Shown one piece after another: positions 16,361-28,970 of a stretch of 29,167 nucleotides of DNA; the first letter of the stretch is position 1, and each line of letters starts with the position of its first letter. The DNA lies in the IMG/VR virus record IMGVR_UViG_3300025120_000355, positions 1 through 29,167 of that record; one strand, 5' to 3'. Source of the DNA: a virus. Position numbers and translations under genes: made by a program. A model generated the notes under the pieces. The model ran no database searches, was not told the origin of the DNA, and saw only the letters and a list, made by a program, of their open reading frames with translations.

Positions 16361-16586
16361 GAAATCAGATCCACTTAACTCTGAAGAAATGACAGAGGCA
16401 GCGGAGATTTTCTTTCCGCTATTTAATATTGTGCACTCGCGAATGCCAGAAGGCGCTACTACAGAGGACTGCTTAAAGGTGATGGAGTCTGTAGCAAAGC
16501 TTGGTCATAAGAATCGAGCAGACAGGGCGGCTAAAGAGAAAGATCTCAACTTTGGATTCAACCAACTAAAAAATAATGATGCCTGA
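16347..16586 (+). CDS. Small helical protein between polymerase halves (79 aa)
   Basis: Overlaps the exonuclease end by 14 bases and the polymerase start by 11. Helical (NSEEMTEAAEIFFPLFNIV), with a conserved-looking EDCLKVMESVAKLGHKNRADR and a short end FGFNQLKNND. Its place between two parts of one enzyme suggests a bridging or stabilising subunit. That is inference; no known domain. Confidence 0.65.
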   Translation: MTIPKKSDPLNSEEMTEAAEIFFPLFNIVHSRMPEGATTEDCLKVMESVAKLGHKNRADRAAKEKDLNFGFNQLKNNDA

Positions 16587-17880
16587 TTACGTTGCTCTTG
16601 AAATGCGGATGGCCGAGCTTATGGCTCAGCAGGAAGCAAGTGGATTTAGATTTGATACTGAAGCTGCTGTACGTGTTCGCACGAAACTGCAGCAGGAGTT
16701 TGATGATCTAACAAATAAAATAAAATCAATTTATCTGTACGTACCTGGTAAAGTCTTCACTCCAAAGCGTGCTGATAAAAAGAAAGGCTATGTAGCAGGT
16801 GCTTCTATGACGCGCTTGACTGACTTCAACCCTACGTCACGCCTAAACATTGTTTGGGCTTTGCAAACATTCCGTGGTGCACGCTTCACTAAGGTTACTG
16901 AAACTGGTAAACCTAAGGTTGATGAAGCAACTCTCTCTGAAGTGAGAGACATTGCATTGTCTGCTGGTAACCAGAAACTGCATGACGAATGTGAGATGTT
17001 TATCCGCTTGTTGACATTACAGAAGTGGCTTGGTCAGCTATCCGAGGGAACCAACTCTTGGTTCAACTCTATTGAGGGGGATAGCTGTATCCATCACAGC
17101 TGCATTCTTGCTACTCAAACATCTAGAAATGTGCATCGGGGTCCCAACTTGGGGCAAGTGGTTAGTGCACCGTGGGCACGTGAACTATTTGTACCTCACC
17201 CTGGTCATGTAATGGTCGGAGCTGACCTTGAGGGCCTGGAATTGCGCCTGTTAGGGCACTACTTGGCCGCCTTCGATTCGGGGGCCTTTGCTGAGGTCGT
17301 GGTTAACGGTGACATCCATCAGCAAAATGCAGATCGTGTGGGATGCACTAGATCTGAGGTCAAAAGTTTAGTTTATGGGTTTATTTATGGAGCTGGAGAT
17401 GTTAAATTAGCTCATATATTACAGCCTGCTTTGTCAGATGCTCAAAAGAAATCGCTTGGTGCTGACTTACGACGCAAATTTCTCGACGCTATTCCTGGAT
17501 TGGAGCCACTAATCGATGCTATTAAACTCAAAGTTCGCTCAACTGGTCGTCTTAGGGGCCTTGATGGGCGTCCTATATTCTGTCGTGCTGAGCACAGTAG
17601 TCCCAACTTCTTACTTCAGTCTGCCGGAGCAATCATCTCCAAGCGATGGGTGGTGATTGGTCAGCAGATGATTGATAGTGCAGGACTTACCTATGACCGT
17701 GACTACACACGATGTGCTTACGTACATGATGAAGTTCAGATGTCTGTAGTACCTGCTGAGGTTGATCGTATGAAACGCTTACTAGAGGCAGCAGCACCTG
17801 AGGCTGGTAAGTACTACAACCTGCGAGTTCCTATGGCTGCATCTGCTGATCATGGTGAGAACTGGGCGGCTACTCACTAA
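16576..17880 (+). CDS. Family A DNA polymerase, polymerase domain only
   Basis: 434 aa with palm, fingers and thumb but no exonuclease. Motif A is VGADLEGLELR (D217, E222); the O-helix is R259-x3-K263-SLVYGFIYGAG; motif C is H384-D385-E386; TGRLRGLDGR (323-331) is the T-x2-G-R-x-R motif. The residue equivalent to E. coli Phe762 is Tyr267, as in T7 polymerase. It replicates the phage genome with the separate exonuclease (15830), the primase-helicase (10129) and the SSBs. Confidence 0.92.
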   Translation: MMPDYVALEMRMAELMAQQEASGFRFDTEAAVRVRTKLQQEFDDLTNKIKSIYLYVPGKVFTPKRADKKKGYVAGASMTRLTDFNPTSRLNIVWALQTFRGARFTKVTETGKPKVDEATLSEVRDIALSAGNQKLHDECEMFIRLLTLQKWLGQLSEGTNSWFNSIEGDSCIHHSCILATQTSRNVHRGPNLGQVVSAPWARELFVPHPGHVMVGADLEGLELRLLGHYLAAFDSGAFAEVVVNGDIHQQNADRVGCTRSEVKSLVYGFIYGAGDVKLAHILQPALSDAQKKSLGADLRRKFLDAIPGLEPLIDAIKLKVRSTGRLRGLDGRPIFCRAEHSSPNFLLQSAGAIISKRWVVIGQQMIDSAGLTYDRDYTRCAYVHDEVQMSVVPAEVDRMKRLLEAAAPEAGKYYNLRVPMAASADHGENWAATH

Positions 17881-20985: not shown

Positions 20986-21183
20986 CTACCTGTCTAGTAT
21001 ATCGAAGTATCCTTCTCTGGGTATCACTGAGCCATCACAGATCAGTTTGTCTAAGTACCTAATGTCTGGTTCTTTTAGTTCTATCTGATTGTCATATAGC
21101 CACTGCCAAGCATCAAAATATTCTTGCAAGTCATTCGATGGTTGGCTCCCGAATGCAACCTTCTTAGCTTGCCCTACATTCAT
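20986..21183 (-). CDS. Small hypothetical protein (65 aa)
   Basis: ATGA overlap with the upstream coiled-coil gene. Contains NDLQEYFDAWQWLYDNQIE and an acidic helix, ending GYFDILDR. No recognised family; membership in the minus-strand operon is clear from spacing. Confidence 0.6.
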   Translation of the reverse strand: MNVGQAKKVAFGSQPSNDLQEYFDAWQWLYDNQIELKEPDIRYLDKLICDGSVIPREGYFDILDR

Positions 21184-21404
21184 ATACCAACTTGCTCATT
21201 TAATTTTCTGACTGCCTGTGCAAGAGGAACGATTGTTGCAAGCATTCGTTTTGGCATCTCTGATTGCATCGTTGTTGACGAGCTTTCCATAAGCTCAATT
21301 TTTGATTCCAAAGCAGCTATCCGCTTTTCCGTAGCCTTGCTTCTCTCCGCCGTAAATTTAATACTCAAAGCAACAGCTAATACTGGCCCTAAAATATATT
21401 CCAT
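21180..21404 (-). CDS. Small membrane-anchored coiled-coil protein (74 aa)
   Basis: Hydrophobic N-terminus (MEYILGPVLAVALSIKF) likely spans the membrane, then heptad-like KRIAALESKIELMESS. Similar to the protein at 22163, with the same order of membrane segment and coiled coil. Could be a holin-like or spanin-like lysis component, but this is uncertain. Confidence 0.55.
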   Translation of the reverse strand: MEYILGPVLAVALSIKFTAERSKATEKRIAALESKIELMESSSTTMQSEMPKRMLATIVPLAQAVRKLNEQVGI

Positions 21405-21438: not shown

Positions 21439-21762
21439 TTAACCAATCATAAGACCATCATCATCTAGATCGTCATTCTCATATTCTTGATCGTCGATAC
21501 TAGTTGGCAAATCATCGTCTGCCCTTAGTAGTAGCTCCATAAAAGTTTCTTCACTAATGATCTCAGGTAAACCAGCCTGATGTTCATCAATTTTGAACAT
21601 GATCCCTGCATTAAGTAGTGTGTTTTGTGTTCCGTTCTTGAGCTCCATGCGGGACTTAAGCAGACGCAAGGCAGTCTTTTCCAAGGCTGGGCGGCTCATT
21701 CGGGATACTTCGTATCGAGCTCTGGTTAAGGCAAATCGTTGTTCGATTGTTAGCGCTTCCAT
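21439..21762 (-). CDS. NblA-like phycobilisome degradation protein with extended C-terminus
   Basis: 107 aa from ATG 21762 (GAGGAAG site 10-16 bases before). Residues 4-52 line up with NblA: LT-x-EQ-x-F-x-L near the start, a V-x2-MS step, then a second helix with L-x6-M-x-LK and a final LL. Host and phage NblA direct phycobilisome proteins to Clp protease and are about 55-65 aa. Here 50 extra residues follow, ending in a strongly acidic tail. The match is by eye without a search. If right, the phage dismantles host light-harvesting antennae to gain amino acids or limit light input. It overlaps the upstream HNH frame by 107 bases. Confidence 0.55.
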   Translation of the reverse strand: MEALTIEQRFALTRARYEVSRMSRPALEKTALRLLKSRMELKNGTQNTLLNAGIMFKIDEHQAGLPEIISEETFMELLLRADDDLPTSIDDQEYENDDLDDDGLMIG

Positions 21763-22108
21763 CACCTAATTCTTCCTCGATAAAACGTTTGTTTGAGATC
21801 CATTCTTCAATTAATTCTTTTGCAGTTTCATTGTAAAATGACTGCCTTTGAAACCATACTAACCAAGGTTCACTTCCTTTGGAGTGATTACACTCAAGGC
21901 AGCAAGGCAGAAGATTGCCTCTTCGGCCATCTCCACCTTTGGATTTTGGTTTTATATGGTCCAGTGTGGTTGCTCGATTGCATCTGCAGTATCCGCAGAG
22001 GCCACCCCATCCATACTTAATTGACTTTTTAAATCTGCGCTTGGCACTCTGCTTAGATAAGCAAGTGAGGTCGAACATTAAGTCCTTCCAGTCTTCAGCA
22101 ATTCCCAT
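21656..22108 (-). CDS. HNH endonuclease (free-standing)
   Basis: 150 aa. A canonical HNH core: C38-GY-C41, TLDHIKP (D50, H51), NLLPCCLECNHSKG (N65, C70, C73, N74, H75). Such genes cut DNA and are often mobile in phages. The C-terminal 35 residues are encoded in the region that also codes the start of the NblA-like protein in another frame, so its tail may be accidental. It is between two small-protein genes in the operon, a typical landing place for a homing-type nuclease. Confidence 0.8.
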   Translation of the reverse strand: MGIAEDWKDLMFDLTCLSKQSAKRRFKKSIKYGWGGLCGYCRCNRATTLDHIKPKSKGGDGRRGNLLPCCLECNHSKGSEPWLVWFQRQSFYNETAKELIEEWISNKRFIEEELGDGSANNRTTICLNQSSIRSIPNEPPSLGKDCLASA

Positions 22109-22162: not shown

Positions 22163-22402
22163 TTATGTAGTGCGATTAATGGTAACCAACATATCCATCT
22201 TGTCTTCGATACGAATTAAATGATCTTCCATCCTTCCCATGGCAGCTGTAAATTCCTGCTTTGATGTATAGGACTCAGCCAGTTTCAACTCCAATCGATC
22301 TACCCTTGTATCTAAAGTTGTAACTCGATTGCCTATTTTGTTGAAGAGCACGGCTGTTCCAGTAACAATAGCAATAACGACAGGAATGGCGGTTTCAATC
22401 AT
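22163..22402 (-). CDS. Small membrane/coiled-coil protein, holin-like
   Basis: 79 aa from ATG 22402 (the frame extends to 22633 but that part overlaps another coding frame). One membrane segment (TAIPVVIAIVTGTAVLF) is followed by a long amphipathic helix (NRVTTLDTRVDRLELKLAE) ending near EDKMDMLV. This layout is seen in phage lysis or superinfection proteins. The start overlaps the end of the frameshift ORF (stop 22395-22397), so the two are translationally linked. Confidence 0.65.
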   Translation of the reverse strand: MIETAIPVVIAIVTGTAVLFNKIGNRVTTLDTRVDRLELKLAESYTSKQEFTAAMGRMEDHLIRIEDKMDMLVTINRTT

Positions 22403-22652
22403 CTCTTTGTAGATGTTTATAACGGGTTGAAATCGACCATCCGTCTTTGCCAAACGTCCCTTTTTCTGAGATTTCCCACGTAGGTGTCTCAGCTGGCTGC
22501 GTTTGAGTCCACTCTTCCTCAGCCTGGTCAAGCTTATTAGTAAGGGTGGCGTAGAACTTCTTTTTTTGAATGTAGCGTTGAGCTCGTTCGAAGTCGGAAC
22601 GAGTGTCAAATTGCCAGAGCCATTTCCCATCATCGGGAATATTGCTTAACTC
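22395..22652 (-). CDS. -1 frame extension lacking any start codon, fused to the membrane protein by frameshift
   Basis: Reading the minus strand in the -1 frame from G22652 gives 85 sense codons to TGA at 22397-22395. This frame is open further upstream too, back to a TGA near 22751, but contains no ATG, GTG or TTG anywhere. The sequence is protein-like: ELSNIPDDGKWLWQFDTRSD, a helical FERAQRYIQKKKFYATL, then EEEWTQTQ and an end ISTRYKHLQRDD. Fused to the first 45 residues it makes a 130-aa protein with a membrane N-terminus and soluble C-terminus, the layout of an inner-membrane spanin, though that is a guess. Confidence 0.6.
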   Translation of the reverse strand, partial: ELSNIPDDGKWLWQFDTRSDFERAQRYIQKKKFYATLTNKLDQAEEEWTQTQPAETPTWEISEKGTFGKDGWSISTRYKHLQRDD

Positions 22653-23290: not shown

Positions 23291-23299
23291 ACTGACAGC

Positions 23300-23384
23300 G
23301 GAAGGGTGGCAGAGTGGTCGATCGCGGTGGTCTTGAAAACCACTGACCTGCAAGGGTCCAGGGGTTCGAATCCCCTCCCTTCCG
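23300..23384 (+). tRNA. tRNA-Ser (anticodon UGA)
   Basis: Complete cloverleaf. Acceptor GGAAGGG (23300-23306) pairs with CCCTTCC (23377-23383), discriminator G at 23384. The anticodon stem GTGGT/ACCAC has loop CTTGAAA with TGA at 23334-23336. A long variable arm, typical of Ser, and T arm AGGGG-TTCGAAT-CCCCT follow. CCA is not encoded. The 3' end directly abuts the integrase stop codon at 23385 on the other strand. Confidence 0.93.
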
Positions 23385-24533
23385 TTACAAGCTTCGTCTG
23401 GATTGGATCTCCCTAACGGCACGCTCCACGTCGTCTGCCTGCATCCAATGGTGATAAGTCTTTGTGTGAACGGCGTGGTCATGTCCCATGCATTTGGCTG
23501 CAAGCACTGAGTTTCCACTTAATTCCACAATGGCATTGATCGCCCAAGAGTGCCTTAAGTCATACAACGTGTGTTCTGAAAAATAAGTCTGCAACCAACG
23601 TGCTGTTTGGTTGACGTAGTACTTACATTTCTCCGGGTCATAGTCAGCTTTGTCGTAGAAGTTATATGGAAGTTCTGGCTGCTCAAGCATTTCAAACTGA
23701 TCAATCCACTGCGGGTGTAATGACATCACAGTGCGACGTACAAGGTTCCCGTTCTTACGTTTAATCGTCCAGCACAAGCCACTGCTGCCATCACCTTTGA
23801 GTTGTAAACCAAATGCCTCACTTGGTCTGCATCCATAAATGATCAAGGCGCAGCACACCCACCCCTGCCACATCACTCCACTACCTTTCTTGCTGACTGC
23901 CCACCGCAGCGTTTGCAGCATTTTTTCTGCGGTCTCTAGATCAGGCGGATTGATCTCACGTTTAGGTATAGGCGGTTCACGCAAGTCATCAATTGGCACA
24001 ACCCCTGGTATGTCCAGAAGCCTGGCGACACGTTTGTAGGTTTTACATGCTTCATAACGAGCACGACTATGCATTGGTGTGCTCAAAATTCCTTCAACTG
24101 CCAACTCGATTGTGAATTCAGCAGAGTTTGGTAGCCGCCTCATCTCATTCTCCAGTCGCTTCCAACTACTGAGCGTTGATTTGTTCTCCCGTTTTTTACG
24201 AAAGAAACTCTGACGTAAAACATCTGTCGCATCAGCAACGGTGATGATGTCCTTCACCTCAAGGTCAGCAATTTCCCAAGGCAGCGGGCGCATGAGTGTG
24301 CCGATGTCTTTGTGGCGCAGGTCAGCTGTCTGAATCCTGTCGATGGCTGTATTGACTGACGACCCATCAGCAGGCAATCCCAAGGAAACTCGTTGCTGTT
24401 TTCTTGGTCCTCGATCGATCGAACAGCTGGTTCGCCAATACCAACGGTCGCTGTGGTCTTCTAATGACCCTCGTATGCCACGGAGCTTGAGTGTTTTATT
24501 GGCATCCGCTAGAACCTCAGTACTGACCTGCAT
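23385..24533 (-). CDS. int: Tyrosine-family site-specific integrase
   Basis: 382 aa. The N-terminal 170 residues hold the arm- and core-binding parts; the catalytic domain has Arg in YGCRPSEAF, the LYDLRHSWA box (Tyr in the first position where His is common), MGHDH, and the nucleophile Tyr360 in TKTYHHW. The gene lies tail-to-tail with tRNA-Ser without a spacer, and its start codon is seven bases from the first of several TTTGACTA repeats that look like arm sites. It should insert and, with the excisionase-like protein, excise the phage genome. Confidence 0.93.
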   Translation of the reverse strand: MQVSTEVLADANKTLKLRGIRGSLEDHSDRWYWRTSCSIDRGPRKQQRVSLGLPADGSSVNTAIDRIQTADLRHKDIGTLMRPLPWEIADLEVKDIITVADATDVLRQSFFRKKRENKSTLSSWKRLENEMRRLPNSAEFTIELAVEGILSTPMHSRARYEACKTYKRVARLLDIPGVVPIDDLREPPIPKREINPPDLETAEKMLQTLRWAVSKKGSGVMWQGWVCCALIIYGCRPSEAFGLQLKGDGSSGLCWTIKRKNGNLVRRTVMSLHPQWIDQFEMLEQPELPYNFYDKADYDPEKCKYYVNQTARWLQTYFSEHTLYDLRHSWAINAIVELSGNSVLAAKCMGHDHAVHTKTYHHWMQADDVERAVREIQSRRSL

Positions 24534-24810: not shown

Positions 24811-25104
24811 TTACTGAGATGTTTTGCCACTCAATAGACCTCTTGATGCCCCTTCGTCAGGAAAATCTCTTGGTCTCGATTCAATACTGCTTTTCCCGCC
24901 AGATACTCGTTCGTGTGCTTGAAAAGTCGCTCGTTTGTAACGATGCATGAAAACATCAGGCAACCAGTAGGTTTCTATCCAGTTAATCGTTGGGTTTAGT
25001 TTGATGTGATGTTCAACCGAATGGGACATCGCACCCATTTGTATATAGCTGTCATGGGATACACAGGTGTTATCACCACTTCTATATAGATATAAGGTTT
25101 TCAC
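24811..25104 (-). CDS. Hypothetical protein (97 aa)
   Basis: GTG start at 25104 overlapping the upstream TAG by one base. Begins MKTLYLYRSGDNTCVSHDS, has WIETYWLPDVFMHRYKRATF in the middle and a polar, probably disordered end. No recognised family. It ends three bases from the right attP-like repeat. Confidence 0.6.
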   Translation of the reverse strand: MKTLYLYRSGDNTCVSHDSYIQMGAMSHSVEHHIKLNPTINWIETYWLPDVFMHRYKRATFQAHERVSGGKSSIESRPRDFPDEGASRGLLSGKTSQ

Positions 25105-28262: not shown

Positions 28263-28970
28263 ATGAGTACACTATCAATAGAATCCTTCAAGAATTTTTT
28301 TAAGTACTACGCTGGTGAATCTCATCAGGAGGCAGCTGCAGAAAAGCTATATAAGGTCTTGCAGAAATGCAACTGTGAACAGCTTAATGAAGATGCGGAT
28401 TGGGTTAAAACTTATAGAAAGACGTCTGAGATTAAGAAGTTTAAAAAACTGATAACGCCTCTATTGATGGAACAATTAACCGGTTATCCGTCATCTGCTT
28501 TTGAAAAAGCCTTCATCAATGACTGCAATCGATTGTATGGTGATACAGGGTTTGCGAAACATATTGATGCCGCACAGATGCTCATGGCGAACATGATGCA
28601 TGAGACTTGTAATTTCTTGTATATGAAAGAGATTTCAGACGGACTGTACTTACGTGGTAGGACTGACTTAGGCCATGGTCCAGACGAAGGGGAAATTTGG
28701 AAAGGTGCCGGAGTACTGCAACTGACTGGAAAGTACAACTACTCACGTCTGGCAGAAGGTATTAACGATCCAAGGGTTATGGAAGGTGTTGATTATGTAT
28801 CTACCACTTATCCATTCACATCAGCACGCACCTGGATTGAAGAGAATGATCTATTAAATATATGTCTGACAGAAGGTTTTGATGCCTGCTGTCGCCGTAT
28901 TAATGGCGGATGGAACGGCTATGAAGATAGGCTTGCGAAGTACAAGATCTGTAAGCAATATATGATTTGA
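28263..28970 (+). CDS. GH19-like endolysin (peptidoglycan/chitin hydrolase fold)
   Basis: 235 aa. The lysozyme-like core starts near residue 80. H113-E114 in MMHETCNF is the first catalytic Glu position; LYLRGRTDLGHGPDEGE, WKGAGVLQLTGKYNYSRL and RRINGGWNGYEDR are the family blocks. The region often reading E-G-R before DLG reads R-G-R here, so the second acid may be displaced; this needs an alignment. The N-terminal 70 residues are helical, possibly for wall binding. It would cut the host wall at lysis or entry. Confidence 0.8.
   Translation: MSTLSIESFKNFFKYYAGESHQEAAAEKLYKVLQKCNCEQLNEDADWVKTYRKTSEIKKFKKLITPLLMEQLTGYPSSAFEKAFINDCNRLYGDTGFAKHIDAAQMLMANMMHETCNFLYMKEISDGLYLRGRTDLGHGPDEGEIWKGAGVLQLTGKYNYSRLAEGINDPRVMEGVDYVSTTYPFTSARTWIEENDLLNICLTEGFDACCRRINGGWNGYEDRLAKYKICKQYMI

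Follow-up and report, generated by a model that had tools for sequence, protein, structure and literature searches.

Organization of the Locus

The stretch of DNA analyzed here (the window, 29,167 nucleotides) is a 29-kb virus record that encodes a family A DNA polymerase, a VapE-type primase, a ribonucleotide reductase and, judged by similarity to the podovirus S-CBP3, a thymidylate synthase. An NblA-like open reading frame (ORF) lies on its minus strand (Table I). The ATG begins at 21762, the last codon occupies 21442-21444, and the stop codon 21439-21441; a GTG at 21765 is a possible alternative start. The encoded protein has a basic half (residues 1-51, pI 10.9) followed by an acidic one (residues 52-107, pI 4.05, 18 Asp/Glu versus 2 Lys/Arg). 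The NblA motif pattern quoted by an earlier note on this DNA is present in the protein.

Table I. Features of the NblA-like ORF and of neighboring genes in the window
Feature	Positions	Strand	Remarks
Whole NblA-like ORF	21439..21762	-	encodes 107 aa from an ATG; positions include the stop codon; relatives at 78 IMG/VR loci
NblA-like domain, residues 1-51	21610..21762	-	Pfam 28/28, NCBIfam 28/28, PDB profile search, hhalign, model
Predicted helix 1, residues 6-20	21703..21747	-	AlphaFold; start inside LxxEQxFxL motif, motif in 46/46 rows
Predicted helix 2, residues 24-51	21610..21693	-	AlphaFold
C-terminal extension, residues 52-107, family-specific	21442..21609	-	kept in 46 A2 rows; no match to NblA alignment
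Predicted short helix, residues 71-80, in conserved PEIISEETFxxLL	21523..21552	-	AlphaFold, block pLDDT 69
Acidic tail, residues 81-107, predicted to be largely unstructured	21442..21522	-	D/E counts in 46 rows; pLDDT 47-55
HNH endonuclease ORF, just upstream, overlaps NblA-like start	21656..22108	-	Pfam HNH 8.4e-7; similar ORF at 74/78 loci
Small membrane/coiled-coil protein, downstream, weak holin match	21180..21404	-	PHROGs holin 7.7e-4; similar ORF at 75/78 loci
Membrane/coiled-coil protein	22163..22633	-	similar ORF at 44/78 loci
Family A DNA polymerase, lineage marker	16576..17880	+	Pfam 3.9e-26

Similar ORFs in the neighborhood were counted by blastp at E ≤ 1e-5 (HNH, 78 loci). The HNH ORF extends over the beginning of the NblA-like ORF, which is read in a different frame (21656-21762); several relatives show this overlap too. 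Dual coding of this overlap was unsupported: pS in codons 1-36 was 0.82 compared with 0.80-0.88 elsewhere, and the HNH frame is stopped early at two loci (L048 and L049). At a further locus (L001; G001:42247-42495) the HNH ORF is cut short in an altered frame, either genuinely or through an assembly error. For the protein encoded at 22163..22633, the homologue in the close relative G001 shares 44% identity with a protein of S-CBP3 whose gene lies between those for lysozyme and the small terminase.

Among the best 80 of 389 polymerase relatives, 30 have at least 3 kb of downstream sequence, and the NblA-like gene is present in 28 of these; the two records without it (L192 and L264) reach only 3.1-3.5 kb downstream. 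The gene behaves as a core gene among these near relatives.

Elsewhere in the window, a tRNA-Ser (TGA) gene at 23299-23385 (+) abuts the 3′ end of a tyrosine integrase ORF at 23385-24533 (-; weak Pfam match, E 0.016). This junction suggests an attachment site and a temperate phage; an ORF similar to the integrase occurs at only 6 of the 78 relatives' loci. The ORF at 3-395 consists largely of Met-Pro repeats (MPKPMNMP...).

Phage Lineage and Host

G001, a long record (84 kb) closely related to the window, has much of it in common, with protein identities that mostly fall at 80-100%. Compared with S-EIV1, three relatives (G001, G029, and G038) showed 54-55% identity in the terminase and 65-69% in a nearby 383-codon frame, genes that the window fragment does not contain. 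In S-EIV1 this plus-strand frame (KJ410740, 60859-62010) overlaps a minus-strand CDS (60784-61545), the annotation of which may be on the wrong strand. The reductase, the polymerase, D1, and the high-light-inducible proteins resemble those of S-CBP3.

Photosystem reaction center genes (Photo_RC, PF00124; psbA/psbD) were searched for in 63 of the 79 lineage records (78 loci plus the window), with 16 contigs of 6.5-24.6 kb left out. They were found in 24 of the 63, and the window fragment has none; among lineage records of at least 56 kb, 16 of 17 had one, the exception being G013. With these photosystem genes and the structural genes related to those of S-EIV1, the lineage is of the marine type that the earlier note had assigned to it. 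A megablast search with psbA of one relative (G008) matched 236 phage records, in which the first word of the name was Synechococcus in 216 and Cyanophage in 20. Because these matches are mostly to Synechococcus-named phages, a phycobilisome-bearing host is likely, and this single gene, in a search that favors psbA of similar composition, points to Synechococcus as the probable host.

Conservation of Both Halves of the Protein

Relatives of the window protein were found at 78 IMG/VR loci, 52 of which were reached by the single-sequence query alone. A scan of GTDB with two peptide patterns gave four further loci (L070-L073) on contigs shorter than 10 kb, in bins named Rhodobacteraceae, TMED88, Puniceicoccaceae, and Blastopirellula; L073 agrees with the IMG/VR locus L046 both in the length of its contig and in the position of the match. 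These copies are probably misbinned phage (cyanophage) contigs. A recent host-derived gene was rejected as an origin: none of the four GTDB loci is in a cyanobacterium, and all are on short contigs binned with other bacteria. A tblastn search of 50,697 phage records with two family members found no member of the family. The window protein gave only three weak matches (E 0.5) to the capsid maturation protease of Arthrobacter phages, and the second query gave none.

Two alignments were used. A1 is the family alignment and profile whose 28 members were scanned against Pfam and NCBIfam; A2 has 46 rows, made up of the window protein and 45 aligned relatives (43 IMG/VR loci and 2 GTDB contigs). Near-duplicate loci and two interrupted copies (L051 and L052) were left out of both. 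In the latter records (G040 and G041) the NblA-like frame is broken, in G041 into three pieces.

Conservation in A2 runs from end to end, with 26 invariant positions spread across both halves. The mean pN/pS was 0.23 for residues 1-51 and 0.30 for residues 52-107, with synonymous sites near saturation; inside the extension it was 0.26 for residues 52-80 and 0.36 for residues 81-107, the least conserved part. The acidic-tailed extension is thus under purifying selection in the 45 aligned relatives. In each of the 46 rows the last 27 residues contain 10-14 Asp/Glu and at most one Lys/Arg. The earlier note had singled out the tail as unusual. It is indeed absent from canonical NblA, but it is not peculiar to one phage; kept in all 46 rows, it is a trait of the lineage. 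One explanation leaves the protein with an ordinary NblA function and lets the acidic, mostly unstructured tail set only its own stability or Clp co-degradation. Low model confidence and the weaker conservation of the last residues agree with this, but the stretch 52-80 has been conserved almost as strongly as the NblA half, which suggests a binding role, and we consider the explanation highly improbable.

Relationship of the N-terminal Half to NblA

Canonical NblA is a protein of about 60 amino acids that sends the light-harvesting antenna to a protease. The window protein alone scored below the model cut-offs: 18.5 bits (E = 0.0029) against PF04485, where the curated cut-off is 25 bits, and 15.3 bits against the NCBIfam NblA model, where it is 100. 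Against PDB sequences NblA ranked third and was not significant (E 0.59). At the level of the family the signal was stronger. All 28 members of A1 matched PF04485 (best 1e-6) and the NCBIfam NblA model (best 5.7e-6) at E ≤ 1, and NblA was the sole family matched by every member scanned. Any one PHROGs family matched at most 4 of the 28 members, and NCBIfam and PHROGs otherwise gave nothing consistent. With the A2 profile, NblA of Synechococcus elongatus (3cs5) ranked first among PDB sequences (4e-5; next row 0.2).

A2 was also compared with six NblA sequences: three Nostoc plasmid copies (one an unannotated frame), PaV-LD, Ma-LMM01, and a 48-residue piece of 3cs5. By hhalign the two aligned over residues 1-51 (92.4%, 5.1e-7). 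An HMM built from the six sequences gave a mean of 22.2 bits on the 46 rows, with a lowest score of 14.7, compared with a best mean of 5.6 and a best single score of 14.0 for 200 column-shuffled control families. When 13 records were searched whole with PF04485, all matched at E ≤ 1 and five were above the Pfam cut-off, three of them only with neighbors in frame. In the control for this search a signal was seen in 4 of 14 genomes, above the cut-off in S. elongatus only; the three genomes with below-cut-off matches are not cyanobacteria.

The reverse searches were negative. The A1 profile matched none of 10 named records at E ≤ 10, although PaV-LD and Ma-LMM01 were among them, as was a Nostoc plasmid that carries bona fide NblA, and the A2 profile had zero matches in S-EIV1 and S-CBP3. 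Because A1 is blind to three records holding clear NblA genes, the relation to NblA must be distant; the link rests on the NblA profiles and the profile-profile comparison, not on A1 or A2 searches of named records.

The LxxEQxFxL motif is found near the N terminus in every row of A2. Five residues are invariant in the six NblA sequences, and four of these are invariant in A2 too, whereas the fifth (Glu28 of Nostoc) is lost. Of the phycobiliprotein-binding motif that NblA has toward its C terminus, a leucine close to the end of helix 2 is kept, but the KHxW of Nostoc NblA (LLKHxW end) is absent; this end is also divergent in NblA of PaV-LD and S. elongatus. The extension (residues 52-107) gave no match to the NblA alignment. 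NblA proper has about 60 residues and no further domain; with 107 residues and a conserved 56-residue extension, the protein is therefore classed as an NblA-like variant.

Structure prediction was performed on single chains. For residues 1-55 the AlphaFold model has two helices, at residues 6-20 and 24-51, with a short turn between them (mean pLDDT 92), which is the helix-loop-helix layout expected of NblA. Over the whole protein the mean pLDDT is 69.6, and the second half is of low confidence. A fold search with the whole model gave no match in the PDB and 28 in BFVD, none at E ≤ 0.001, and did not return NblA. Residues 1-55 gave three weak PDB matches (best Z 3.0, VIA-align) with no NblA among them. 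Fold searches on a two-helix chain are uninformative; since NblA was not retrieved, the fold evidence is confined to the helix layout.

Taken at family level, the profile matches make a good case that residues ~4-51 are homologous to NblA, in line with the resemblance that the earlier note had seen in the N-terminal half. That note had proposed an HMM search with the NblA family, which was significant for the family and below the cut-offs for the window protein alone. It had named the lack of a profile match together with a different fold as evidence to the contrary; a profile match was found, and two helices with a short turn are predicted.

NblA-like Proteins of Other Cyanophages

Cyanophage NblA has been described from several sources, and marine cyanophage NblA was reportedly shown to be active by Nadel et al. 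in 2019 and 2025. In one paper, NblA of S-SCSM1 is described and Nadel 2019 is cited for NblA in marine metagenomes, in 14 cyanopodoviruses, and in S-TIM5 (PMC9602691). A second source credits Nadel 2025 with the finding that many oceanic cyanophages encode NblA, which is estimated to cost up to 5% of the light captured by photosynthesis worldwide (PMC12892361). Both are consistent with the earlier note's statement that NblA occurs in freshwater and marine cyanophages. Within a narrow literature search for phage NblA with an acidic C terminus, with most subscription journals outside its scope, no paper was found; an earlier description of the acidic-tailed family in the marine viral NblA work of Nadel 2019/2025 is possible. 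In S-CBP3 (NC_025461, 21438-21731) a 98-codon frame without a CDS of its own has NblA as its best Pfam match (E 0.036), as expected if this cyanopodovirus carries nblA.

Cyanobacterial NblA (PF04485; PDB 3cs5, 1ojh, 2q8v) shares with the window family the LxxEQxFxL motif, the helix-turn-helix, and the profile match over residues 4-51. It differs in length (about 60 compared with 107 residues) and at the end of helix 2, and the window family has in addition a conserved 56-residue acidic extension. The freshwater phage proteins of Ma-LMM01 and PaV-LD are likewise phage-borne and have the NblA-type helix pair, but they lie well above the Pfam cut-off (52 and 45 bits), whereas the window protein is below it; PaV-LD NblA has 54 residues and no tail. 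S-SCSM1 gp237, from a marine cyanomyovirus, was called NblA-like by its authors using HHpred; unlike the window protein, it has 54 residues and matches neither PF04485 nor A1.

A second group of acidic-tailed proteins was found around S-EIV1. Its protein AHV82245 (KJ410740, 73902-74222; L168:33903-34223), annotated as hypothetical, is NblA-like and has an acidic tail of its own; in a published table, nblA does not appear for the group of S-EIV1 (PMC5332604). Relatives of AHV82245 were found at 31 IMG/VR loci, 14 of which were aligned (A5; rows of 90-108 aa). All 14 matched Pfam NblA at E ≤ 1 (best 9.2e-6; the member identical to S-EIV1 0.014), and hhalign against the six NblA sequences gave 88% (3e-6). 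The column-shuffle control was less clear for A5 than for A2: the A5 mean of 13.4 exceeded the best shuffled mean of 6.6, but the lowest row (10.4 bits) fell below the best shuffled score of 12.2. A5 resembles the window family in the Pfam match, in the acidic stretch at the C terminus, and in belonging to phages with related structural-region genes. It differs in forming a separate branch, each of A2 and A5 being closer to NblA than to the other, and in lacking psbA in the 12 records tested (Photo_RC in 0 of 11 A5-type contigs and none in S-EIV1). Homology of the two tails was considered, but their alignment was not significant. No A5 match was present in 19 A2-type records of at least 46 kb; 12 A5-type records, S-EIV1 among them, were likewise without an A2 match. 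By these profile searches, the S-EIV1-type phages appear to carry the A5 protein in place of the window's family.

These results bear on the explanation that the protein is not an adaptor but a small lysis, packaging, or regulatory phage protein, its helix pair being similar to NblA through convergence or a very remote relationship. Its fixed place between the HNH ORF (74/78 loci) and the holin-like gene (75/78), and its presence in 28 of the 30 near relatives able to show it (best 80 of 389 polymerase relatives), would suit such a role, as would the fold search without NblA and the failure of the A1 profile to find any bona fide phage NblA. Against it, NblA is the consistent Pfam match in two separate phage families (28/28 and 14/14), matches to any one PHROGs family stop at 4 of 28 members, and column-shuffled versions of the window family do not score. 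We regard this explanation as improbable.

A Second, Short NblA-like Protein

A short protein of 67-80 amino acids (A6) is encoded elsewhere in the genome in all 17 A2-type records of at least 56 kb. In G001 it lies at 28760-28960, outside the part equivalent to the window, and the window fragment has no such gene. It was not found in three A5-type contigs and S-EIV1. Among ten isolate records searched with the A6 profile, six cyanophages were without any match, including Syn9, P-SSM2, Syn5, and P-SSP7. In S-SCSM1 the profile matched 208993-209130 (E 1.1e-3), over gene 237, which is annotated nblA (208951-209115), and in S-TIM5 it matched 24905-25033 (1.4e-4), over a 54-codon hypothetical gene; both matches extend slightly beyond the stop codon of the gene. 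By hhalign, A6 aligned with S-SCSM1 gene 237 at 45.6% (2.1e-4). Profile-profile comparison with the six NblA sequences gave 87.2% (3.9e-6), but only three of nine members matched Pfam NblA (best 0.0046), and coiled-coil fusion glycoproteins ranked above NblA in the PDB. A five-sequence version of A6 had no profile match to A2 (0.3%). The assignment of the short protein to NblA is thus weaker than that of the long one, and its link to S-SCSM1 NblA is weak.

Discussion

NblA has been reported to bind ClpC near its N terminus. According to a passage in a review, it facilitates the interaction of ClpC with phycobilisomes (PMC7966870). The reading that we favor, with moderate confidence, is that the protein is a phage member of the NblA superfamily that, during infection of marine Synechococcus, would serve as an adaptor for proteolysis, docking on ClpC and taking phycobiliproteins as cargo through its extension. 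The N-terminal homology, the two-helix prediction, the conservation of the tail, and the cyanophage context of the lineage were computed directly; the dimer, the binding of ClpC, the phycobilisome target, the role of the tail, and the host we infer.

In the proposed mechanism the N-terminal helix pair (residues 4-51, with the invariant motif) probably dimerizes as does NblA, whose dimer is a four-helix bundle, and would dock on the host ClpC chaperone, the LxxEQxFxL motif being a candidate ClpC-binding motif. The conserved C-terminal extension, for which the earlier note had proposed a possible effect on the choice of partner, would take over the binding or handover of the substrate, most likely phycobiliproteins. 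During infection the antenna would then be partly broken down or retuned, and phage D1 would meanwhile keep photosystem II at work. The N-terminal motif is invariant, and a new conserved segment stands where NblA has its C-terminal end; most simply, the ClpC side would have been kept and the cargo side rebuilt. A phycobiliprotein is the likeliest cargo; the protein may instead carry another, or may work together with the short protein.

Some points count against the adaptor reading. Nearly half of the protein is without a known counterpart, the fixed synteny with the HNH ORF and the holin-like gene is unlike that of a freely moving metabolic gene, and it could be the short protein that acts on phycobilisomes. 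A possible but doubtful alternative is a retargeted adaptor: the NblA-like half would bind ClpC, the C-terminal half would bring another host or phage protein, and phycobilisomes would be left to the short protein, acting by itself or paired with the long one in a heterodimer. The short gene in 17 of 17 long lineage records, its weak profile match to the annotated S-SCSM1 NblA, and the conservation of the long protein's C-terminal half without any NblA match are consistent with such a division of labor, and a published title reportedly names an essential NblA1/NblA2 heterodimer in Synechocystis. However, two NblA-like proteins could simply be redundant, the NblA assignment of the short protein is the weaker one, it has no profile match to the long protein, and the window fragment lacks its gene. 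We offer only tentatively the idea of a lineage with two NblA-type adaptors, in which the short one is akin to published viral NblA and the long, acidic-tailed one directs ClpC to some other target or is obliged to pair with the short one. If true, viral reprogramming of the Clp system would go further than breakdown of the antenna alone.

To return to the adaptor reading, the protein would be a phage NblA-type ClpC adaptor that bears a new acidic tail, with phycobilisomes as its putative target. Annotation from one sequence at a time can overlook genes of this kind: in S-EIV1 the gene is listed as hypothetical, and in the window the protein on its own stays under the Pfam cut-off. Viral NblA reportedly reduces the light that oceanic cyanobacteria capture, and the protein described here probably helps the virus to dismantle or retune the light harvesting of its host. 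A long acidic-tailed form conserved throughout a cyanophage lineage, together with a second, short NblA-like protein would make viral control of the antenna more elaborate than the action of one small adaptor, and the tail offers a direct way to ask how the target choice of a Clp adaptor is set.
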